Part shown: piece by piece, positions 4,371-59,159 of the stretch
How positions within the stretch are numbered: the stretch's first letter is position 1
How the letters are laid out: each line of letters begins with the position of its first letter
Assembly: GCF_026210795.1 (NCBI RefSeq)
Contig: NC_089454.1
Span: 248,001-312,000 of the forward strand
Reading direction: 5' to 3'
DNA: 64,000 nt
Source of the DNA: Rhizophagus irregularis
Lineage: Eukaryota; Glomeromycota; Glomeromycetes; Glomerales; Glomeraceae
Program-made: the position numbers and the translations under genes
The notes under the pieces: generated by a model
Told to the model about the DNA's origin: nothing
Seen by the model: the letters and a program-made list of their open reading frames with translations, nothing else
Database searches by the model: none

Positions 4371-4624
4371 AATGGCCCATACATCTCAAAAAAATTATTA
4401 AACATTTGGACATCGTAGGATATAATGACCAGATTGATGGCATTTTTTACAATGTCTTTCCCTTATTTTACCAGCTTGAGTTGCTATAACTCTCTCTTCA
4501 TTTTCATTATTAGTGATATTAGTTATATTTCGTATATGCCTTGCTTTCTTTTTTTGGGATTCACCACATGATCTGTACCTATTAGGTTATCTACCTTTAT
4601 GTTGTACTCTTAATAGATCACCAA

Positions 4625-7209
4625 CATCAGTAAGTTAGGTCGGCATAAATTATTGTATTGAAAAGCACTGTAAAATTCGGCGCATTGATCATTGCAATGA
4701 TTTATGCCAACAAAATACTAAACAATGCACCAATTATTCAGTGCAATGATCATTGTATTGGAAAGTGCATTGATTACTGTGACATAATTCAGCACCTTGA
4801 TTAGTGTTAAAAGTTTCAGTGCAAATCTGTGACACAAAATTGCAAAGTTTATTTACCTAACTTTAAGTTTATTTTTTATTAAGTTTATTTAGGTATATGG
4901 CTTCTTTCTTCGAAGCTGAAGTTTATTTTGCTTCAGTTTCGGTATTATTACTTTGTGATTTATCTTTTTATTTTTTTTATTGCTCATACTAATTATGTTT
5001 TTTTCTTAACATTCAAACATAGAAATAACATGAAACTTACCCTTCACATTTCAAGTCCAAGAAACTGTCTATAAAAGAAAATAAAAATAGAACGTTAATT
5101 AACGCTCTTAAAGTAAAAAAAAATTAAAAATCTAAAAAAGTAAGTCTCTTTTTTATCCTTTTGTTTCTTTTAATTTTTTTAATTTCCCTTTGTTGATTGC
5201 GTTTTTTTTTGTAGAAATGGATTGATAATTTGAAAATAGTTCCGATCGGTAGTATTACTAGTCATATGACTTATGGCCAAACCGATTTAGATAATCTTTT
5301 TTTAAGAGTTTTAAGAAAATTTTTTCTTTTTTATTTTAGGTAGGGAACTCAGAATGAAAACGGGATATTAAGGTATTTTTATTAATATTATTTTATTTAT
5401 CATTATTTTTTTAGGAATGAAATTGACTTTTTCTTTTCATTTAGGAACAGTTCTTTGGCAGATTTCCTAGACTTTCTGAAAAGATAAGTGTTTTTTTGGA
5501 GTGTATGATAGCGTAATGGCGTTAGGAAACAATACTAACCCCATTTTTTTATTCTTTTAGGTCCTTGAACACTCCTGAACGCTTCCTGGAATACAGATTT
5601 GAAGGTAGGCAGGTGTGTGCTGTGTATTGGTGTTAGAAAACAATACTAACGCCTTTTTTTTATTCTTTTAGATTCTTGGACGCTTCCTAGAATATAGATT
5701 CAAAGGTAGATAGGTATATGGTGTATATTTGCATTAGGAAACAATAATAATGCCTTTTTTTATTATTTTTTTAGGTTATTAGAAGCAAAATTTGCGGTAA
5801 GTTTCTTTGAGTGAATGCGTGGTAGTTAATGGCGTTATGATAATATTAATACCTTTTATTTTTTTAGATCGTTTGTTAGAATTGAACCAACTGGGACTAT
5901 GACCAAACCATTAACAACAGGTAAAAATGGTAGAATATTTCTATTTTTTTTTAAAGAAGCGTTATATTAACATTTCTTTGTATTTTGTAGGTTCTTCTGG
6001 CTTCCCTTTACCATTGGATTCCTAGTAGGTATTTTGAAGTCAATTTTGATTTTTTTTTTGAAGTGCTATATTAACACTTTTTCTTTGTATTTTGTAGGTT
6101 TCTTTCAGCTTTCGGCATTGGATATTTGGATATCGGGTAGGCTTTAAAGACGAAAATTTGTTTTTTATTATTTTTTTTGAAGTGTTATACTAACACTTCT
6201 TTTATATTTTGTAGATTTCGTTCAGCATTGGATACTGAATACCGAGTATGCTTTAAAAATGAAATTTTTTTTATTATTTTTTTTTGAAATATTAACTAAT
6301 ACTTCTTATATATTTTGTAGGTTTCTGCTTCAATATTTGGCTGCTCATGTGGTAAGTTTCTGGAAATTAATTTCAAAATTATTTATTTATTTTTTTTAAA
6401 AGAAACGTTTACTAACGTTTCATTTTTTCTTTTTTACTCGGTATAGATTTCAGCTTTGCATTTAGGTGTTAGATTTTTGGTAAGTTTTGAAGTTATATCA
6501 TAACTTTAAAACTATTTGTTTTTTTTAAAAGAATCGTTTTATTAACATTTCTTTTTGTTTTTTCTTGTAAGAGCCAATTTTGAATTTAGCTTAAGTTTGG
6601 AAGAAAGCAATTTATTATGACACCATAGTCCCGTTCAGGTGTCTTTTTTAAAAATTTCAATTTTTTTTTTTTAATATCAGATAAATTTTTTTATTAAATT
6701 TTTTTTATTTTAGGAACGATTTAGCTTGGCAATTTCTTGGAATGGATATTTCTTGTAAGACTTGTGAGTTTTAGGAAGGATTTTTTTTAAAAATCTTAAT
6801 GAAAACGTTATTAAATTAATGTTTCTATCTTATTTTATTTTTAGGAACGGTAGATTTCTTGAAATGGGACTTATCATTATTTACAATAATGTGAGTTTCA
6901 GGGGATAATTTAAATTAAATATATACTATAATAGACAGTTAGGTATATGAAAATAAAATAAATACAGTAAAATAAATAAATTAATTAATTAATAAATTAA
7001 TAAATAAATAGAATAAAATGAAATTAAATAAATAAATTAAATAAAAAAATCTGTGCAATGATTTATGCGATGTAGATAAAACAGTGCATTGATTGATGCT
7101 ATTTTTCAACGCGCTGTTCTGTGTTGCCTTCGTAGAATCACATGATTTCACGCTGATCTGTGTTGGCATAAAACAATGCGCAGTTTTATGCGCACTTAAC
7201 TTACTGATG
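4625..7209. mobile_element. TIR element carrying microexon-like array 1, inserted in the MULE gene
   Basis: The MULE reading frame stops at both sides of this block and resumes beyond it, so it is an insertion. Its ends are inverted: CATCAGTAAGTTAGGT (4625) and ACTTAACTTACTGATG (ending 7209). Flanking AA on both sides could be a 2-bp target duplication, but is too short to be sure. Subterminal parts at both ends repeat GTGCATTGAT-like motifs and GGCATAAA, as in many cut-and-paste elements. No transposase ORF is present, so it would be non-autonomous. The superfamily is not settled (CACTA-like is one option). Confidence 0.65.
5210..6905 (+). other. Microexon-like array 1: about 17 acceptor-exon-donor units with hairpin branch sites
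   Basis: Each unit has a pyrimidine tract ending in TTTTGTAG or TTTTAG, a short block, then a GTAAGT/GTAGGT donor. Readable exons are 5561-5604 (44 nt), 5672-5705 (34), 5775-5796 (22), 5868-5920 (53), 5991-6024 (34), 6098-6136 (39), 6215-6245 (31) and 6321-6351 (31). Upstream of most acceptors lies a TACTAAC/TATTAAC branch-like site set inside a dyad, for example GAAGTGTTA-TAC-TAACACTTC (6179-6199). Exon lengths are mostly not multiples of three and joined exons carry stops, so a protein is not supported; a spliced non-coding RNA is possible. What is seen are motifs; splicing itself is inference. Confidence 0.6.
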
Positions 7210-8447
7210 AATATGCATAAAAACTATATTTTCCTGATGTTCAGATAATTCTACTTTTGTATTTTCAATAAAACATTTTACTTGATTGACAAATTCATCA
7301 ACTTTATCAGTTCAAATAGCCAAATCAAGAGCTTTTTTAGCATATTTTATACCAAATCCATACTTTTGTTTAGGACCTTACAGTTGTATAATATTAGGAG
7401 TTTGCCTAAAATTTGTGAGATGTTGAAATGATGATTGAAGTATGGGCTGTTCTAACTCACTCAACTTATTTTCTCCAATATGATATATTGGTATTACATT
7501 TTTCTCATGTTCATTATATTTACTATTATTATACCATCGTTGAGGAATAAGTGATATATGAAATTGTGCAGTAATTGAATAAGACATAACCTGAAAAAAG
7601 TACCTGCATATAATTCCTCTATTAATAAGCTAAAGACAAATACATAGATGTGAACTATCATCAAGAAGAATAACATATTGTGATTCTGATTTTTATCCAC
7701 AATGTCTAGTTACTTTCCATACTTGCTGAATACTATTGTGTGGTATATTTTCAATTAATGAAGAAAATAAAGATTGAGGTTGGTTATAATCATCTTCTCT
7801 AGCCATTTTTTGTTGATAAAAATCATCTTTAATCTAAAAAAAAAAAATATTTTTTAGTTGTTAGTAACTGTTATTACTATTATTAATGCTAACACTAAGT
7901 TCTCACTTTAATTAACTATTAGTAACTTAAGCCTAAAAGTGGCAACCAATCTTCAATCAATATTGTATCATAGCATAATGATTAAGCCATTTGATCACGT
8001 TGTTTTTGAAAAATTTGTGGTGTCAAATACTCTTGCAAAATCTTATCAAGTTCTGGAAAATATTCATCTATTATAAATGGTATTCCTTTTGTTGGAATTT
8101 CATTTTTACATTCACTTAATATTGCTTTTTTTGATTGTTGATCAAATGTTTTTTGAACTTCTCTAATAACATCAGTTAAACATGAAGTTTATCTTTAATT
8201 ATTTTGTTTATTACTTCATAGTGATGCAAGTCTTAGAACTCTAGGAAGTATACGAAGAAGCAATATAAGTATCAGTAAAGTCAAAATCCAGTTCAAGCTA
8301 GAAAGTTAAAGAGTTTGACAGCATTTTAGTTTCTTAAGTCAATGGTAATGTCTCTATACTTCGTTGGTTTATAACATTATTAGAAGCGGTTACAAAAGGT
8401 TTAGAGCGATTCGATCTAAGTGAGAATCTAAGTTCTACCCGTTATGT

Positions 8448-13645: not shown

Positions 13646-14691
13646 TATACATGGCCTGGTAAATCATCAGCCAAAAACGTAATTCGTAATTTGAAATACA
13701 TAAATAATTACGTAATTCGTAATTAATTATGTATAACGTAAATAATTACATTTAACATAATTACTGTAAATACTATTGGTAATTAATCACATGATATGTA
13801 AAAAAAAATATGCTGAAACTGATAGTTCAGCAGTTTTACATGTAAAAATGAAAAGAAAATAGCCAAAACTGATAGTTCTGGCAGTTTTACATGTAAAAAT
13901 GAAAAGAAATCTCTGAAACTAATAGTTTTGGCATTTTACATGTAATAATAAAAAGAAAATTGCTGAAACTGATAGTTCTGGCATTTTTACTTGTAAAAAT
14001 GCAAGAAAATTGCTGAAACTGATAGTTTTGGCATTTTTTCTTGTAGAAATGAAAAAAAATGCCGAAACTGATAGTTTCGGTATTTTTACTTGTAGAAATG
14101 AAAAAAAAATGCCAAAACTAATAGTTCCAGCGTTTTCACTTGTAGAAATGAAAAAAAATGCCAAAACTGATAGTTCTGGCATTTTCACTAGTAAAAATGC
14201 AAAAAAAATACTAAAACTGATAATTCTGACGTTTTTACTAGTAAAAATGCAAAAAAATGCCGAAACTGATAGTTCTAACATTTTTACTAGTAAAAATGCA
14301 AAAAAATGCTAAAACTGATAGTTCCAGCATTTTTGCTTGTAGAAATGCAAAAAAAATGCCAAACAGATAGTTCCAGCATTTTTGCTTGTAAAGATGCAAA
14401 AAAAATGCCAAAACTGATAGTTCTGGCGTTTTTACTTGTAGAAATGCAAAAAAAATGCTGAAACAGATGGTTTTGACATTTATATATATAAAAGTGCAAA
14501 AACAATAAAATGCTGATATGACTTTATATAAAAAAAGCACATGACCCATGATCAGCCAATAATATTTACGCTAATTATATATGATATAAATAATTATGTA
14601 TTTACGTATTTTTCAAAAAATCTGGTAATTAATTATCAGGATTACGAATTACGTATTTATACGAAAATAAAAAATTACCAGGCCATGTATA
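13646..14691. mobile_element. 1.05-kb hAT-like element filled with minisatellite, in the MULE gene
   Basis: The ends TATACATGGCCTGGTAA and TTACCAGGCCATGTATA are perfectly inverted and flanked by an 8-bp duplication ATCATGAT (13638-13645, 14692-14699), which is itself palindromic. Between about 13800 and 14480 a unit of roughly 55-60 bp (ACTGATAGTTCTGGCATTTT plus a GTAGAAATGCAAAAA-like part) is repeated about 12 times. The 70-120 codon ORFs in this region on both strands are translated repeat, not genes. Confidence 0.8.
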
Positions 14692-45474: not shown

Positions 45475-46081
45475 TCTTTTTGTAGATTCTAGACAAAATT
45501 GGAGTTGATAAAGGAGAGAGTTAGAGGTAATTCAAAATGGGGGTTGGGTCGTCTTAATATAAGAATACTTAATAATATTCATTTTTTTTTCTTTTTGTAG
45601 AAACACGTTACAGGTCTTTTGATGCACCTAGGTAATTCAAAGTGTGGTTGAGAGGATTATAATTTTAATATAAGAACATTTAATTTTCTTTTGTAGATTT
45701 CAGATCAAAACCTTGGAATTGGAGTGAACATATAGGATATATAAAGGAGAGACGAGGGAAGTAATAATCCAAAGTGGGGGAGAGTATAATTCTGACATAA
45801 GAATATTTAATAATGTTTTTCTCTTTTTTTTTCAGGAACTGACATTATGACACATTCCTGGATCTGGAGGTAATTCAAAGTAGTATAATTTTAAAATAAG
45901 AACGTTTAATAATGTTCTTTCACTTTCTTTTTGTATGTTCAAGATTCCCGGAATCTTAAAATTGAGTGGGTATATAAAGGGAGGGAACTGGAATTTTTTT
46001 TTGGTTTAAGAATGGTATCAACATTCCTTTTTAATAAAATTCAAGACTGAAATCTCAAAATCCCGAAACTCTAGAACTGGG
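45475..46081 (+). other. Outer microexon-like array, left part
   Basis: About five units are seen with acceptors TTTTTGTAG near 45485, 45600, 45697 and TTTTTTCAG near 45836. Exons include AAACACGTTACAGGTC... (about 31 nt) and GAACTGACATTATGAC... (about 34 nt). Introns start GTAATTCAAAGT and contain dyads such as AAGAACGTTTAATAATGTTC. The array breaks at 46082 and resumes at 53431, so the 7.3 kb element was inserted into it. Confidence 0.5.
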
Positions 46082-46109
46082 CACTGGTCGAAAACAAAAA
46101 AATCGGACA

Positions 46110-46900
46110 TATGGAAAATCAGCTAAAAATCAGACCAAAATCGACTGACATTACAAATCGGCACATCTGATTGATGCCAATCAGACAATTTAATAAAAAT
46201 CCAGCAAAAAATCATCATATTTGATTGACGGCTGATTGATGCTAGTTGAAATCAAAAAAAAAATCAGACAAATGGCAAATCAACCTAAAATTTGCCCAAT
46301 ATTCAAATATGCACTTCCAATTTATGGAAAATTGACAATTCAATAAAAATTCAATAAAAATTCAGCAAAAAATCATTATATTTGATTGATGGCTGATTGA
46401 CGTTGGTTGAAATTAAAAAAAAAAATCAGACAAAATGGCAAATCAACTTAAAATTTGCCCAATATTCAAATATGCACTTCCCATTTATGGAAAATTGACA
46501 ATTCAATAAAAATCAATAAAAATTCGATAAAAATCCAGCAAAAAATCATTATATTTGATTGACGGCTGATTGATGCTGGTTGAAATCAAAAAAAAAATCG
46601 GACAAAATGGGCAATTCAACCTAAAATTTACCCAATATTCAAATATGATACTTCAGATTTATGGAAAATTGACAATTCAATAAAAATTCAATAAAAATTC
46701 GGCAAAAAATCATCATATTTGATTTACGGCTGATTGATGCTGGTTGAAATCAAAAAAAAAAAAATTGGATAAATGGCAAATCAGCTTAATATTGTTTGAT
46801 TTATAGTACTTTTATATCAAATTAACACATTAAAATTCAATAAAAATCAGTAAAATTCGGCAAAAAATCCATATTTGATTGATAATTCAGAATATAACAA
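46110..46900. repeat. About 168-bp tandem subterminal repeat, 4-5 units
   Basis: Units carry TTGATTGACGGCTGATTGAT, GGCAAATCAACCTAAAATTT and CACTTCCAATTTATGG, at about 46269, 46435 and 46605, with partial units either side. Confidence 0.75.
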
Positions 46901-47329
46901 ATCAGCTAAATTTTGGTTAAAATTGAGCTAATATGTAATACAATTCAGATCAATTTAAGAATGAATCAACCAAAAATTGACTTAATGATTTGTGGTCGAA
47001 TCTTTTCATTTATTGGAACAGATTTTATAATGAATTCGTATTTCAATCCAAAGTTTTTGGTTGAAATAGCTTAATTTTGACTCATATGATTTTCTGAAGT
47101 TCTTTCTGAATTTCTGATCATGTTTCCAAGAGTAGTTTTTATTACGATCGGGCTATTAAAGTTTAAATAAAGCATATTCAAAGTTTTCGACTTATGCAAT
47201 TATTTTAAAGTTTTTTTTTCATGATCTGCAGTTTGCAGATTTTTATTTGATTTAGATCAGATGATCGGATCGGATAGTCTTTTTTACTTCTACCGGTTTG
47301 GATGAAGTAAAATGGAGAGTTTCGTAGCA

Positions 47330-50300
47330 TTTTGTTATGAAACTTGGATTTTTTTTAAAGAAAATGTTATATTAACGTTTTCTTTTATTTTGGAAGGGTT
47401 TGGGTGGTAGATGGTGAGTTTTGTAACCTTTTAGGTTACAAACTTAATTTTTTATTTAAAGTTTTTTTACTTTATTTTTTGTAGGGACTTTGGTTCCGAA
47501 GTGGACACCAAGTTCCCAAGTAAGTTCCGAAAAAAAAGTACAAAACTTTTATTTAAAAAAACAATTTTAACGCTTTTTATATATATATATTGTAGGGACT
47601 TTGGCTCTGACGTGAATAGTTCCCAAGTAAGTTTCGAAGAAAAAGTTCAAAACTTGTATTAAAAAAAAGTTGGTTTTTTTTTTTTATTTGTAGGGACTTC
47701 AGCTCCGACACGGATACCGAATTTCCAGCATTTCCAGTTCCTTCAGATAAGTTTCGAAAAAAAAAATCAAAACTTATTAAAAAAAAGTTAAAAGTATTTA
47801 TATTTTGTAGGGATTTGAATACCCAAGTAAGTTTCAAAAAAAATTCGAAACTTTTTTTATTTAAAAAAACGTAGTTCAAAACTTTAATAAAAAAAAAAAG
47901 AAACTTTTGTTTTTTTCTTTTTTGTAGGGACTTCGGCTCCAACTTGGTACTGAATTCCAGATACGTTTCGAAAAAATGTTTCGAAACATTATTATAAAAA
48001 CTTCTTGCTATTTTTTATTTTTGTAGGAATCCCCTTCGGACGGGTAAGTTTTGAAGTTTTAATAACTTCGAAATTTTGAACTTTTTGTTTAAGAAACGGT
48101 TTATTAATCGTTTCCTTCCTTTTTTGTAAAGTTCGGCATCTCCTTAGTTAGGTTTTGGGGCGAGTTTGGATATGAAAAAGATAAGTTTCATAATTTTTAT
48201 GAAACTTTTTCTTTAATTTTTTTTTAAAGGAAGCGTTATACTAATGCTTCTTATTTTCTTTTGTAGAGTTCGGGACAGGTTTGAATATGAAAAAGGTGAG
48301 TTTTGGGATGAGTTTGAATACTGTTACAAATTTTTTGAAGGAAACGTTGTACTAACACTTCCTTTTTTATTTTGTAGGTTCCAGGTCAGGTCTATGGTAA
48401 GTTTCGTAATGTCTCGTTACGAAACTTTTTCAATTTTTTTTTTAAAGGAATCGTTATACTAACGTTTTCCTTTTTTATTTTATAAGTTTCGGGATGAATA
48501 GTGAAAAAGGTGAGTCTCGTAACATTTTGTTACGAAACCTTTTTTTAACTTTTTTTGGAAGGAAACAGTTTATTAACGTTTCCTTTTATTTTATAGGATT
48601 CGGACAGGCTTGGAAAGGCGAAATGGTAAGTTCCGTTACGAGACAGTTTTTTTTTATTAAAAAAAAAATTAATATATTTTTTTATTTTATTTTTTTGTAG
48701 GGACTTCGGCTCTGACTTGATACCAGATTTCCATGTAAGTTTCGATTTTGAAACATTAATAAAAAAAAGTTTATTTTAAACGTTTTTTATTTTTTTGTAG
48801 GAAATCGGCTCCAATTCAGATACCAATCCCATTCTACAGGTAACGTTTCGATTTTCAAAACTCGAAACTTAAAAAAAAACGTTATTTTAACATTTTTTTC
48901 TTTTTTTTCTTTTTTTTGTAGGGAATCGGCTCCGATTTGGATACCAAGAATCCCAATAGGTAAAATTTCGAAGTTTCGTTTTTCAAAACTTAATAAAAAA
49001 CGTTTATTTTAACGTTTTTTTATATTTTTTTTTGTAGGAAATCGGTTTTGAGATTTTAATACCGGATTCCCATGTAAGTTTTGAATTAACTTTACGAAAC
49101 TAAAAAAAAATGTTATTTTAACGTTTTTTATATATTTTTTTTATATTTTTTATAGGAAACTGACTCCGATTTGGATACTGAAATCCCGCAGGTAAAGTTT
49201 CGAATTTTCGAAACTTTATTAGACTTAATAAAAAAATGTTTAATTTTAACATTTTTTTATTATTTATTATTATTTTTTTTTTTTGTAGGGAATCAGCTCC
49301 GATTTGGATACCAAGAATCCCAATAGGTAAGTTTTCAAAAATTTGAAACTTAAAAAACTTAAAAAAAAATTAACGATTTTTTTTTTTTTTGTAGGAAAAT
49401 CGGCTCCAAATTGGATACCGAAATCTTGCAGGTAAAGTTTTTAATTTTTCGAAACTTTACACAACTTAATAAAAAAATGTTTAATTTAACGTTTTTTTAT
49501 TATTTTTTTTTATTATTTTTTTTTTGTAGGGAATCAGCTCCGATTTGGCTACCATTCCCACAGGTAAAGTTTTGAAGTTTCTTTTCAAAACTTAATGAAA
49601 AAACATTTATTAACGTTATTTTTATTTTTTCAGAGTATGGTAAATCGAAATCTGAAACTTGAATCGAATTCCAGGTAAGTTTCGAAATAAAATTTTCAAA
49701 ACTTTATTTAAAAAAACTGTTAACTTTTTTCTTTTTTGTAGGCTGACATGGGTGGCAAAATCTCCTCGGTCAGGTTTCAGGATGAGTTCAACGTGGCATT
49801 TCGAAGGTAAAATCGAAAGATTTTATTAATTTACAGTATCTAACAAACGTTACTAATGTTCGTTCTTATTTTTTGTAGGGCCGGAAAGCCGAAAGACAAA
49901 TTTCGGTCTTCCATTCCGAAGGTATAAACCAAAATTTTTTATTTTGTTTACTCTATTTTAACGAACGCTAACTAATGTTCGTTCTTACTTTTGTGTCAGT
50001 GAAACACTTAGGGCGGCATTTCGAAGGTAGAAAAATTTTTTTTTCTTTTTTTATTTACACGAAATGTTGAATAACTTTTGTTTATTTAAATTTTTCTTTT
50101 TTGTAAGTACAGAAATCTGAAAACAGATCCTGAACTCCTTGATTTTTTTTTAGGTTTTCAGCTCTCCAGTTTCTGTCTATCTGGATGGAATTTCGAAGGT
50201 AACTCTTCGAAATTCTATGTTTTTTTTTTCTTTTTTTTATTTGAACGAAACGTTACTAATGTTTCAATTTTCTCTTTTTGTAGGACCAGAACACGAAAGT

Positions 50301-51360
50301 ATGGTCCCGGGCTCTATTTCGAAGGTATACCCTTTGAAAATTATTTGTTAATTTTATTTTATTTAACGAACGTTATACTAATGTTTGTTTTCTTTTATTT
50401 TAGGTCCCGAGTTCCCATTTTGAAGAACTTCAAAGATACACACGTCAAATGACCAAAAACAGGCAAAAAAAATGGCTAGAATTGCATAAACTATTTGCAA
50501 ATTTATATAAACTATTTACAAATAGTATAGGTTAATTCGCAAATAGCCAAAAACAGCCAAGAATAGCCAAGAATAGCCAAGAATAGCCACTGCTTTTCGT
50601 GCCATTTTTTTTGCCAATTTTTAGCATTTCGACCTGTGATAAATATTTCAAAGTTCTTTTTTACTTTTTTTAACGAATGTTATACTAATGTTCATTTTTT
50701 TTATTTTAGGTTTCAGGTATTCAACTCTCTGTTAAATTTATGGACAGAATAGGTGAGCTTCGATGTGTTTTTTTTGTTGGTTTTTTATTGAATTTTGGTA
50801 TTAACATTTTACACTTTTTTTGTAGATTTTCAGTTGAATCTTCTTGGTTTATGAGTAAGCAAACGAGATTCTTCATTATTTTTTGCCGAAACGTTATCAT
50901 TAATTCTTATTTATAGATCTTTTGACTTTAGGTCCAGATGGATTCGGATTTTGGAAATTGTAAGTTTTTTGCACATCGGTATTGAGCTTAGAATTTGAAT
51001 TCAGTAAGTTTCGCAATGAATGAAACTTGTTTTTTTTGGCTTTTTCTTTATTATTAAAAATGCTTTCTAACGTTTCCTTTTATTTTGTAGGAACAGACTC
51101 TGGCCATGGTAATGAAATGTAAGTCCATTGGGGAAGAGCTTTTTCGATATTAACTTAAAGAAACGTACTAACGTTCCTTTTTTCTTTATTTTGTAGGAAT
51201 TGTAGACATTTTTTTGCGGAATTCAGATTTTTAGATAAAAATGGTAAATTTGAAATAATTTATAGTTGAGTTTCGAAATGTTATTAGTTGATGATGATTT
51301 TTTGCCTAATTTTTTATTAATTCTTTTTATTTTTTATTCATTAGGTTAAAAATGGCGAAT
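47330..51360 (+). other. Microexon-like array 2: about 35 acceptor-exon-donor units with hairpin introns
   Basis: Repeats of 95-140 bp each have a T-rich tract ending in TTTTGTAG, a block of 17-55 nt, and a donor GTAAGTTTCG. Related exons are 48922-48959 and 49289-49326 (38 nt, GGAATCGGCTCCGATTTGGA type); neighbours are 34, 36, 37 and 39 nt, so no fixed reading frame. Donors often sit at the base of a hairpin: 48400-48409 pairs with 48417-48426 (AGTTTCGTAA/TTACGAAACT) and 48183-48193 with 48197-48207 (AAGTTTCATAA/TTATGAAACTT). Branch-like TACTAAC sites sit in a second hairpin (GAAGCGTTA-TAC-TAATGCTTC near 48233). Between repeats both arms change together. Splicing and RNA product are inference. 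No long ORF is present. Confidence 0.6.
50441..50637 (+). mobile_element. About 197-bp MITE, copy 1
   Basis: The ends CACGTCAAATGACC and GGTCGAAAT-type complement (ATTTCGACCTGTG) are imperfectly inverted. The interior repeats AATAGCCAAGAATAGCCAAG and a TTTGCAAATAGT-like dyad. The same sequence, inverted, is at 56517-56702. It interrupts array 2. Confidence 0.7.
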
Positions 51361-52039
51361 TTAGAATGACATATGTGCCGATTTTTGGAATTAGTCTAAA
51401 TTAAGATTTTTATAAAAATTTAATATTTTAGTAAGATTAACATTACACAAATCTAAATTAAATATGTGTTACATATTTACGTAACTCAGATTTAATAAAA
51501 AATAAAAAAAATTTTTTTAATCAATATTCAAAAATAACGGTAATAACCACTTCTTTTTCCCCATCACTCCCATCACTTTTCCATCATTTTTCTATTCACT
51601 TTTATTAAATATGACAAAAAAGTTTATAAGCAAATATAGCAGTTATTTTTAAGTGGTAAGTAAAAGAAAAAACTTAATATTTTATATACATAGATAAGAC
51701 ATATTTTTTCATAATTTTTAGCTTTAATTTATTGTTTTTTCTTTGTAAAAAATACATGCAAATAAAAAATAATTATGATGTAAAATAGTTGTAAAATGAA
51801 TAATAAGATATTCTTTTTTTTCAAAATAACTAATTATATATTTGTTTTTTATCTTTTAAAATTATTTTATTAGATTTATTCTACTAAAATCCTTAAATTG
51901 CAAATAAAATCTTTTAAATAAAGTAAAAGAATTTGGGATTCTCTTATGAAAGCATTTTTTGGTAAGAAATAAAATTTTCAGATCGGACTTTATGCAGGTG
52001 ACAAAATCGTGCATTATTATTCCTGGAGATATGCTAACG

Positions 52040-52640
52040 TCATCATTTTACATTCATTTGAAAGCTGAGAATTTGCTCTATCGTAAGAATCAAAGATCAG
52101 GAAAATTGGATCACTGGATGAGGCGTAATTAACGATCAAAGTCAAATCAAATTTAAAAATTAAAAATAAATATATTAGACGTAATTATTCACAATCCAGT
52201 GATTCAATTCATTCGATTTTAGGCTTATTAGATAGACCTCAATTTTCTCTTTCAAATGAATATAATTTCATTCGTGTAGCTTGCATCTACAGGTATTTAA
52301 TAAATTTTTTTATATCAGATTTTATCAAACTTATAAAATTTTATATTAATAATATAATTGATGATTCCTAAACATCTACATATAATAAACGAATTATTTT
52401 AAATTTATTTTAAAGATAAAAGTTGGCATCACCTTAGGGAGCAAAGATCATTCAAATTGAATCACTATATGTGAAGTAATTAATGATCAAATTTAGATAA
52501 AATTCAATAATATACTGAACGTGATTACTGAACAACTAGTGATTCAATTCACTTGATTTTAGATTCATTAGATAGATCTCGATTTTCTCTTTCAAATGAA
52601 TGTAAATTTATTTGTATAGCTTATTTCTACGAAGAATTAT
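52040..52640. repeat. Two tandem foldback units
   Basis: Each unit runs from AAAATTGGATCACTGGATGA-like sequence through ATTAACGATCAAA to AATCCAGTGATTCAATTCAT and ends GATTTTCTCTTTCAAATGAA. The inner ATCACTGGAT and ATCCAGTGAT parts form inverted pairs. Copies at about 52045-52290 and 52430-52625 are diverged. Confidence 0.6.
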
Positions 52641-52964
52641 CAATGATTTTGTCATGAGAGTTATATTTGATCTTTTAAATTTTAATGATATCTTATATTA
52701 AAAAAAAATTAAAAATTATATAATTAATTAGTTTTTTTTGCATTATCTGGTATAAATTTATTATTCTTATATAAATGATAATTTATATTTGCTTTAATAA
52801 AATTATTTTTGTGTAAAAAAATTAGATTCCAAGGATCGGCCCATATGATTTATTATAGGTATTATAGATGTATTTTAGATTAGAAATAATTAAGGAATAT
52901 ATATATATTAAATGTAATATTTAACAATAATAATGTAATTTGAAATGTCTAATAAAAATCGAAT

Positions 52965-53310
52965 AAAATTAAACTAAATTCGGAAAAAATTATTCACATT
53001 CAATCTAAAATTTGCCATAATTCAGACAAAATTCATCAACAATTCAGAAAAAAATTATCTAAAATTTGCCGTAATTCAGACAAAATTCATCAACAATTCA
53101 GATTAAATTCAGAAAAAATTATCTAAAATTTGCCATAATTCAGATAAAATTCATCACAATTGGTTAAACAATTCAGATTAAATTTGGAAAAAAATATCTA
53201 AAATTTGCCATAATTTAGACAAAATTCATCACAATTGGTTAAACAATTCAGATTAAAATTACTAAACAATTCAGAATAAAAAATATATTCAATTCGGACA
53301 TTCTGATCAG
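52965..53310. repeat. Right subterminal tandem repeat of the CACTGG element
   Basis: A unit of about 60-65 bp with AATTCAGACAAAATTCATCA and ATCTAAAATTTGCCATAATT is repeated four to five times. AATTTGCC and AATTCAG motifs match the left subterminal zone. Confidence 0.7.
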
Positions 53311-53430
53311 TGTCGATCAGCCTGCCAATCGGAACTTTTCCTAAATTAATAAATCGGCCATCTTTATCACCAAATTCAGCCTAAAATCGGACATCCGATT
53401 TCTAGCTGATTTGGACTATTTCGACCAGTG

Positions 53431-53590
53431 AGGTGAGTGGGAATAGGAAAGGAGGAAAGGTGCCTTTTTTTTTAATCCAAGAATGTTTATTAACATTCAT
53501 TATTTTTTTTATATAGATCTGAATCAGTTCCAGGAAGTTTCAGTTTTGGCTTCAATATCGGAAATTGAAAACAGTTTTAGGTAGCAACAT
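53431..53590 (+). other. Outer microexon-like array, right part
   Basis: GTGAGTGGGAATAGG (donor-like) at 53433 is followed by AAGAATGTTTATTAACATTC, a dyad with a branch-like site, then TTTATATAG and an exon of about 60 nt ending before GTAGC. The dyad matches the left outer array, supporting one array split by the element. Confidence 0.5.
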
Positions 53591-57321: not shown

Positions 57322-57323
57322 GG

Positions 57324-57357
<34 letters not shown>

Positions 57358-57365
57358 AGGTTAGG
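57322..57365 (+). repeat. Interstitial telomeric repeat block
   Basis: About seven units, mostly TTAGGG with one TTTAGGG and one TTAAGG variant, lie between TAAAGC and ATTCCGAATAG of the element's left terminal repeat. Confidence 0.9.
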
Positions 57366-57704: not shown

Positions 57705-59159
57705 TAGGGCTCCGATCGGTTTGGTTCGGTATGGTTTTTGCCAAAACTGAAACTGACCGGTAAATACCGAAAACCGAACTGATTTACCGATTCATTATCG
57801 GTTCAGTTTTTAACATTTTCGCAACATTTTTTATTAAAAAAATGTGCGAAAACGTTTTTTTTAATTAAATTAACTAACAAAAACATTTTGCAACGTTTTT
57901 ATTAAATTATCAAAAAAAAATGTTGCGAAACGTTTTTTTTTAATTAATTAACTAATAAAAAACGTTTCACAACATTTTCTATTACTAAGTTATTGAAAAA
58001 AAACGTTGCGAAACATTTTTTTTAAAATAAATTAACAAATAAAAATGTTTCGCAACGTTTTTATTAAATTATCAAAAAAAAACGTTGCGAAACATTTTTT
58101 TTTAAAATAAATTAATTAATAAAACCGTTTTGCAACATTTTTATTAAATTATCAAAAAAAAAGCGTTAGCGTTTTTTTTTAAATAAATTAACAAATAAAA
58201 GCGTTTCATAGCGTTTTTATTAAATTATTGAAAAAAGCGTTGTGAAACATTTTTTTTAATTAATTAACTAATAAAAAACGTTTCGCAACGTTTTCTATTA
58301 AGTTATTAAAAAAAAATGTTGCAAAACATTTTTTTTTTAAATAAATTAACAAATAAAAACGTTTCGCAACGTTTTATTAAATTAAATTAATTAACTAATA
58401 AAAAACATTTTGCAACGTTTTCTATTAGGTTACTGAAAACAAACGTTGCGAAACGTTTTTTTTTTAAATAAATTAACTAATAAAAACATTTTGCAACGTT
58501 TTTATTAAATTATCAAAAAAATGTTGCGAAACGTTTTTTTTAAATTAATTAACTAATAAAAAACATTTCACAACGTTTTCTATTAAGTTATGAAAAAAAA
58601 CGTTGCGAAATATTTTTTTTTAAAATTAATTAACAAATAAAAACGTTTCGCAACGTTTTTATTAAATTGTCAAAAAAAACGTTGCGAAACGTTTTTTTTT
58701 AAAATAAATTAATTAATAAAAACGTTTCGCAACATTTTTATTAAATTATCAAAAAAAACGTTGCAAAACGTTTTTTTTAAATAAATTAACTAATAAAAAC
58801 GTTTTGCAACGTTTTTATTAAATTGTCAAAAAAAATGTTTCGCAACGTTTTTTTATCAACGTTACGAAATGTTCGGCAAATCAGTTCGGTAAATTTACCG
58901 AAATGATCAGTAAAATTTACCAAAGTGATCAGTAAAATTTACCGAAGTGATCGGTAAAATTTACCGAAACTGATACCGAAAATATCAGTTCAGTAAATCG
59001 GTTCATTAAATCGCAAAACTGATACCGAAACCGAAGTTACTGAAACCGATCGGTAAATTTACCAAAAGGTTTAGTTCGGTAAATCAGAATACCGAAACCG
59101 TTCTGATACCGAAACTGATCGGTTCGGTTCGGTAATTACTGAAACCGATCAGAGCCCTA
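57705..59159. mobile_element. 1.46-kb hAT-type element filled with satellite, nested in the palindromic element
   Basis: The ends TAGGGCTCCGATCGG and CCGATCAGAGCCCTA are inverted, flanked by CATTCGAC (57697-57704) and CATTCAAC (59160-59167). Subterminal zones are dense in GGTTCGGTA, ACCGAAAC and TTTACCGA motifs. The centre (57815-58860) is a satellite array. No transposase is encoded. Confidence 0.85.
57815..58865. repeat. Hairpin satellite, GTTTCGCAACGTT / AACGTTGCGAAAC, about 88-bp period
   Basis: About 12 units each contain AACGTTTCGCAACGTTTTTA, an AAATTATCAAAAAA spacer and AACGTTGCGAAACGTTTTTT, so each unit folds on itself. Variants such as GTTTTGCAAC and GCGTTTCATAGCG occur. Confidence 0.85.

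Follow-up and report, generated by a model that had tools for sequence, protein, structure and literature searches.

The window analysed here, a stretch of 64,000 nucleotides from the Rhizophagus irregularis genome (NC_089454.1, positions 248,001 to 312,000, forward strand), contains on its plus strand at 5140-6890 an array of about 15 intron-like units lying between 16 exon-like blocks of 22-53 nt, which we call array 1. Judged from its sequence, array 1 is the cargo of a young, recently mobile, non-autonomous Plavaka-related transposon and not part of a host gene. On the same kind of evidence it is one of a large class in which tandem short introns (~60-120 nt) and short exons (~20-50 nt) lie inside several transposon families. 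The reading that we favour, with a probability of about 0.55, is that array 1 is a non-coding transposon body built of introns that would be spliced out, that splicing is what is selected and that a transcript resembling those of the host would escape silencing.

The transposon is complete at positions 4625-7209 of the window (2,585 bp), with array 1 inside it. It has five copies in the genome, pairwise 97.4-99.5% identical, and homology among all five breaks off at most one base from the same two ends; the copy on C27 (L012) is internally shortened, to 2,414 bp. The element is bounded by terminal inverted repeats with 25-nt arms that are 88% complementary, the left arm beginning CATCAGTAAGTTA at 4625-4649 on the plus strand and its partner lying at 7185-7209 on the minus strand. 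Read from the flanks, a 2-bp target duplication, AA, stands at 4623-4624 and again at 7210-7211, and a duplication of this size matches in 5/5 copies, the other four having GT, TT, GA and TA. Longer elements with the same ends are found on C20, C29, C15 and C11; identity is 75-77% over ~131 nt at the left end and 84-86% over 105 nt at the right, in those elements for which the end concerned was covered, and the 2-bp duplication is seen in L018 and L019, the two coding relatives that could be checked at both ends. The relative on C20 (L018, 6.55 kb), whose left end matches that of the array-1 element at 77% over 131 nt and whose right end does so at 86% over 105 nt, codes for a match to Plavaka transposase (PF18759, E = 5.3e-35). 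Movement of the array-1 element was presumably in trans, with the transposase supplied by a longer relative that has the same ends. An earlier, sequence-only reading of the window mentioned neither the transposon ends nor the donor-side hairpins and the genome-wide family described below.

Within the element, the splice-like signals are confined largely to one strand. Donor-like hexamers, branch-plus-acceptor motifs and T-tract acceptors number 6, 22 and 55 on the plus strand of array 1 against 0, 6 and 9 on the minus strand, and seven other arrays show the same bias, weakest in L016 (2/25/80 against 0/14/54). The exon-like blocks have a G+C content of 35% and the introns one of 22%. The sequence-only reading had described some 17 units, each with an acceptor, a block of 22-53 nt and a GTAAGT-like donor; the array and the block sizes stand, the number of units is nearer 15, the start of the first block being the analyst's choice, and some of the donors are weak (GTAGTA at 5249, ATAAGT at 5484 and GTTTGG at 6595). 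Given poor sites such as the ATAAGT at 5484, the array-1 chain of introns may not be fully functional. This ATAAGT, at 5484-5489, stands where other units read GTAAGT or GTAGGC; the same hexamer occurs at donor places in a second array of the window (array 2, ~47747) and within long 'exons' of the arrays L013 and L017, and these sites are possibly AT-AG introns or decayed donors. Among the introns of array 1 on the plus strand, that at 6352-6446 has a perfect dyad, GAAACGTT/AACGTTTC, at 6402-6421, and that at 6480-6571 has a donor hairpin, AGTTTTGAAGTTAT/ATAACTTTAAAACT, with a donor stem z of 6.3.

A covariance model, R1, built from 23 introns of which none comes from array 1 and three come from array 2, scores the same two introns at 41.4 bits (6352-6441) and 38.6 bits (6480-6571). 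For this model 29 introns were selected by script and six dropped by eye as mis-segmented, atypical or near-duplicate, a choice that favours structure, and the remaining 23 were aligned. R1 also scores dyad-rich repeats of the window that are not introns, at 57.9-58.9 and 13.8-14.4 kb, at up to 37.3 bits, so that by itself it barely separates array 1 from such repeats. It gave no hits in the coding-relative stretches L018 (C20), L021 (C15) and L022 (C11). The coding relative on C29 (L019) has six hits, the best of 58.2 bits, in a stretch of ~3.3 kb that is absent from L018. The exons of this inserted array (L019 4610-6074, minus strand) resemble those of array 1 by eye, and the insert may be the source of array 1 or a nested element.

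Genome-wide, the donor-hairpin pattern GTAAGTTTCG-N4-24-CGAAACTT has 652 matches and its reversed control none. From the 100 matches listed, all on C1 to C4, 14 loci were fetched, 13 of them picked as seemingly isolated and one a cluster. The model finds two or more array-type introns in each of the 14, and exons and hairpins differ among the loci; a lone array-type intron in a host gene was not seen among these 14 (L092 has two model hits, the others at least three). At two loci the arrays adjoin coding exons. In L085 (873-1052, minus strand) a WD40 exon fragment, with PkwA as first match in the PDB and PWP2 among the best, lies between array units and is joined directly to an array donor; it would be either a captured host exon or a sign that the array lies within a host gene. 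In L088 (574-1000, plus strand) the last intron of the array ends immediately 5' of a mitochondrial-carrier exon (PF00153, E = 5.1e-12), and a further hairpin motif lies beyond the stop of that gene, so placed that array exons within a host mRNA are possible. An Rfam search returned nothing at gathering score in L073 and L078, and for positions 4500-7400 of the window only two MIR161 matches, far below that score. In the limited open-access literature listings consulted, no description was found of transposons made largely of many small non-coding introns, and the word Rhizophagus does not appear in the main text of an introner survey (PMC9860276).

Array 2 lies at 47315-51196 on the plus strand, within a second, CACTA-like element at 46081-53429 (plus strand) with the ends CACTGGTCGAAA...CGACCAGTG. 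Its introns have both donor and branch-site hairpins, and the best R1 hit is 77.6 bits at 48397-48486. A 360-base piece of the element has 288 matches in the genome and a 621-base piece from its middle has 114. Two of the latter loci, L073 and L074, are elements that end in CACAGGTCGAA. CAC termini and matching 3-bp duplications were found in all five of the CACTA-like relatives for which both ends were seen (L016, L017, L065, L073 and L074; for the first three, the outermost of two left ends was used in the duplication check), and the flanks of the window copy, GGG and AGG, do not match. The L073 element interrupts a retroelement frame that reads through once the flanks are rejoined; one flank matches RNase H (E = 1.3e-5), and the match to reverse transcriptase on the other is weak (E = 0.0035) and below its cut-off. 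At C9:4009500-4016500, minus strand, the array of L016 is a tandem expansion of about a dozen similar units of ~129 bp, each of a 36-nt exon and a ~92-nt intron with a near-perfect donor palindrome. An intron-like hit of 26.8 bits at 53437-53516 of the window lies just beyond the right end of the array-2 element, which may have landed beside another array or a gene.

Comparison of diverged copies suggests which features of the arrays are kept. Across five copy pairs of related arrays the GT/AG splice dinucleotides differ at 1/212 positions, against 517/5531 for other exon and intron positions. Counted in both directions, which takes in sites lost in either copy, the figures are 6/422 and 1161/12379, with p = 2e-4 even against half the latter rate, a comparison that allows for the calling of sites; this p is optimistic, as both directions draw on one set of five alignments, L073 is in two of the pairs and gaps are counted as differences. 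Exons differ more than introns in 5/5 pairs (in total 406/3322 against 755/9057). Among the five copies of array 1 itself, variable sites number 40/557 in exons, 24/1214 in introns and 24/814 in flanks (0/5000 permutations in base context). The kept trait thus seems, by these alignments, to be that of being spliced rather than the content of the exons. Constraint on splicing is seen in the alignments of the CACTA-borne relatives and we infer it for array 1. In one array-1 copy, L010, two clusters of changes, mostly transitions, lie at or beside exon blocks (5344-5354 and 6570-6590 in window numbering) and could be the result of local hypermutation or conversion.

The exons do not behave as coding sequence. 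Exon lengths modulo 3 are distributed 17/45/46 among 108 exons of array 2 and related arrays, a set in which related exons repeat and which is therefore no random sample (L067 and L016, poorly segmented by the script, were left out). The predicted spliced product of array 1, 577 nt long, has 18 codons in its longest ATG frame, and without an open frame it offers no place for the signal peptide and in-frame hydrophilic repeats of an SP7-like effector. Only in L016 are most exons 36 nt long; for the most part they have no stops in any of the three frames, and their differences, judged by eye, are mainly transitions. A microexon protein gene was rejected on grounds of frame, stops and exon rate. 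A microexon gene in the animal sense, which the sequence-only reading had brought up for comparison, is not supported, the exon lengths being out of phase and the spliced product lacking a reading frame. The proposal of that reading that the array is transcribed and spliced has indirect support in the intron-like signals and in the splice dinucleotides kept between diverged copies of related arrays, splicing itself being a prediction. The second suggestion of the sequence-only reading, that the repeats mimic splice sites, came near the mark, though that reading overlooked that they are cargo of a transposon.

The branch-like sites of array 1 lie in short dyads, and this was scored with a type-blind stem measure, given as z against dinucleotide shuffles, on array-1 and array-2 introns delimited by hand. 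As controls we used kinase-gene introns of the same genome, 37 in number (from 40 loci, of which three were dropped, two because no intron could be recognised and one because its acceptor was doubtful). The mean z of the branch-site stems is 1.87 in array 1, with 5/15 introns above 2, and -0.11 in the kinase-gene introns, with 1/37 above 2, so that the dyads noted in the sequence-only reading exceed chance. On the plus strand they include GGCGTTAG/CTAACCCC at 5518-5542 (one mismatch), GGTGTTAG/CTAACGCC at 5629-5653 (one G.T), TGCATTAG/ATAATGCC at 5730-5754 (6/8 paired), the imperfect GGCGTTAT/TTAATACC at 5831-5853 and GAAGCGTT/AACATTTC at 5956-5976, and the perfect GAAGTGTTA/TAACACTTC at 6179-6199 (z 6.5).

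That the arms of these dyads vary together, as had also been claimed, holds in part. By their arms the ten curated dyads divide into two groups, one with long and one with short loops. While swapping arms over all ten gives 66/80 pairs for the dyads' own arms against a permuted mean of 43.1, matched in 8/20000 permutations (a result inflated by the slightly unlike registers in which the two groups were cut), the same test is not significant inside either group: own pairs are 25/32 against a mean of 24.5 in the long-loop group (fraction as good 0.46) and 41/48 against 37.8 in the short-loop group (0.07). A cruder test on 17 branch-like anchors of array 1, many of which are no true branch sites, gave 0.500 against 0.353 (standard deviation, sd, 0.052). 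Over the eight counted pairs Watson-Crick pairing is complete in two of the ten dyads, and the other eight have one to three pairs that are not; G.T occurs four times and A.C five. Several of the changes resemble CpG decay, since the passage from GCGTTA/TAACGC to GTGTTA/TAACAC or GCATTA/TAATGC is also the product of CpG-to-TpG/CpA change on both arms. The dyads singled out in the sequence-only reading are the better ones of the ten.

Beyond array 1, branch-site stems again exceed dinucleotide shuffles, with a mean z of 1.37 in array 2 (10/25 above 2), 2.83 in L013 (16 introns), 2.39 in L016 (17) and 3.90 in L017 (only four). Donor stems have a mean z of 1.57 in array 2 and 3.44 in L016, and show no clear excess in array 1 (0.63, 2/15). 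In the alignment of 23 introns 96% of the cells of the donor helix are paired, and 30 cells carry a double change against 9.4 after shuffling (0/500 as high); one position of this stem occurs as C-G, A-U and U-A. The branch-site helix has 11 such cells against 4.8 (2/500 as high), and three pairs with a double change against 2.1 (171/500 as high). RNAalifold, unaided, predicted the donor helix only. When donor arms from the fetched arrays were anchored on their constant flanks, 36 distinct pairs matched at 0.764 against 0.593 on permutation (sd 0.027, 0/5000 as high). Among the 100 matches listed there are 58 distinct inner strings, 47 of at least 9 nt, from which 28 distinct arm pairs were taken, leaving out repeats, some short rows and those self-complementary rows that are listed for both strands; these inner donor stems matched at 0.759 against 0.442 (sd 0.041, 0/10000 as high). 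Permutation of the branch sites over all loci, a noisy test on 611 anchors of which many are no true branch sites, gave 0.444 against 0.363 (sd 0.016); its direction favours pairing, but for the branch-site helix, the weaker of the two, we rely on the alignment. The class as a whole does co-vary, then, mainly in the donor hairpins. Imperfect pairs are G.T in 40 and A.C in 31 cases in 141 donor stems, and G.T in 77 and A.C in 75 cases in 392 branch-site stems, the stems being taken type-blind and including decayed copies and chance stems, many of the latter among the branch-site ones. The hairpins are real and regularly placed; since G.T is not in excess and template switching is able to keep dyads, we take selection on them at the RNA level as a possibility. 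A different register of hairpin is seen in L067 (1650-1830, reverse strand numbering) and at 50187-50220 of the window, where the 3' end of an exon, GGAATTTCGAAG, pairs with the intron sequence CTTCGAAATTCC and leaves the donor in the loop.

How such a body could serve a transposon may be pictured as follows. A transcript of such an element would contain a dozen or more introns, and with every unit treated as an intron and cut out, what remained would be a string of small exons of no fixed content and with no open frame. Being spliced would be the selected property, and the exons would be free to change fastest. Hairpins could bring the donor and the branch site of an intron close together by folding, or could time their use. 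The host might then handle the multi-intron transcript like that of a normal gene, so that the element would stay transcribed and open to transposition; this is the weakest step. The fate avoided would be silencing as intronless foreign DNA, and in animals the HUSH system is a form of silencing that spares transcripts containing introns (PMC8770142). By extension of the same analogy, the non-coding arrays with their hairpin introns would serve several transposon families of this arbuscular mycorrhizal fungus as camouflage: transcripts spliced many times would pass as those of the host, and the elements would be protected against the silencing of intronless or unspliced foreign DNA, selection keeping splice sites and folds while the exons drift, a generalisation that we consider rather unlikely.

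A number of points weigh against the favoured explanation. The arrays are known from DNA sequence alone, and their transcription and splicing are predictions. The camouflage step would rest on analogy with HUSH in animals, and we know of no HUSH-like system in this fungus. The excess of change in exons is gone at non-CpG G+C sites (92/789 against 154/1325); under global alignment it is not significant for L078/L079 (5/295 against 6/763) and absent for L081/L082 (38/262 against 137/838). Among the array-1 copies 3/60 splice-dinucleotide positions are variable and L010 has lost two acceptors, so that constraint on splice sites is unsupported in array 1 itself. If the fold of the sense RNA were under selection G.U would be expected to exceed A.C, and the near equality of G.T and A.C in the stems gives no sign of such selection.

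It is a real possibility, if short of even odds, that the dyads arise as a side effect of replication, in which template switches within imperfect inverted repeats time and again rewrite one arm from its partner; the arms would then stay complementary with no selection on RNA folding, and the units could still be spliced. Mutation of this kind is able to make and keep dyads (PMC8794818, PMC3820800), and it would suit the equal numbers of G.T and A.C mismatches, the transversions among the paired changes (A-U, U-A and C-G at one stem position) and the dyad-rich non-intron repeats in the same window at 13.8-14.4 and 57.9-58.9 kb. It is less readily reconciled with hairpins at fixed places relative to the donor and branch site across array families, when only 1/37 ordinary introns exceeds a z of 2, or with donor and acceptor motifs that are one-stranded. 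The hairpins might instead impede splicing and the arrays feed the production of small RNAs, as a trap set by the host for transposons or as a signal of the element. Stalled introns feed small-RNA production in Cryptococcus. RNA interference in that fungus is fed by introns and splicing (PMC5851062), many small RNAs of R. irregularis come from regions in which young genes are frequent (PMC10234402), and the donor and branch sites of the arrays often lie within stems; such a trap would, however, leave the conserved splice sites of mobile copies unexplained unless the host gains from them, and we regard it as improbable.

Slightly less credible still is that the repeated unit is a mobile intron, comparable to an introner, that has spread by copying within transposons and seeds genes of the host. 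Stable folds or inverted repeats are ascribed to introner-like elements of fungi (PMC8469720), and array introns abut the mitochondrial-carrier exon of L088 and the WD40 exon of L085. Against this, none of the 14 loci fetched from the 100 listed of 652 pattern matches, a small sample, has fewer than two array-type introns according to the model, only 1/37 kinase-gene introns has a branch-site stem with z above 2, and around single units no target duplications were seen, multiplication looking tandem. Capture by a transposon of a decayed or fast-evolving protein gene with repeated microexons, for example one for a secreted effector, is largely refuted and we hold it very unlikely. The 36-nt exons of most L016 units, mostly stop-free in three frames, would agree with it, as would the repeat structure of the SP7-like effectors of R. 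irregularis (PMC11333574). In the arrays, however, phase is not kept, no frame stays open and change is faster in exons than in introns, and SP7 is described with a conserved intron ahead of its repeats and not with one in each (PMC11333574).

The non-intron repeats named above are tandem and dyad-rich, at 57836-58854 (79-bp units with AAACGTTTCG...) and 13802-14506 (49-bp units) of the window, and are half recognised by R1. An interstitial telomere-like repeat, GGTTAG, lies at 57322-57365.

It is known that introns shield genes from some silencing systems and that transposons create introns. The arrays offer hundreds of natural units differing in hairpin and exon, with which it can be tested whether fungal mobile DNA is shielded from silencing by splicing itself, and whether short-intron splicing is steered by folds at the donor and branch site. 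They also carry a warning for annotation, as a gene model composed of many tiny exons may, in this genome, turn out to be a transposon.

Set beside known systems, the container of the arrays is ordinary, consisting of Plavaka-related and CACTA-like non-autonomous elements, and it is the content that sets them apart from introners, microexon genes and stwintrons. Plavaka transposons we take to be placed near EnSpm/CACTA. The array-1 element has both terminal repeats and the 2-bp duplication size of its PF18759-coding relative, but it lacks a transposase, and its interior is taken up by intron-like units. Likewise L073, L074 and the array-2 family with CACTGGTCGAAA ends share CAC termini and 3-bp duplications with CACTA non-autonomous elements, but the fungal ones described here hold arrays of ~10-20 small introns and exons. 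In animals, microexon genes have many very short coding exons in a row. The arrays resemble them in the row of very short exons and differ in having no reading frame or keeping of phase and in being repeated on transposons. The symmetrical stwintrons of Hypoxylaceae also have inverted repeats inside proliferating fungal introns, but theirs is one long inverted repeat across the intron, with nested introns, in genes (PMC8469720). Introners and introner-like elements share with the arrays multiplied introns, stable predicted folds and a tie to DNA transposons; theirs, however, are single introns spread over genes, whereas here many tandem introns with non-coding exons lie in one transposon, and the ends of the introns are not the ends of the transposon.

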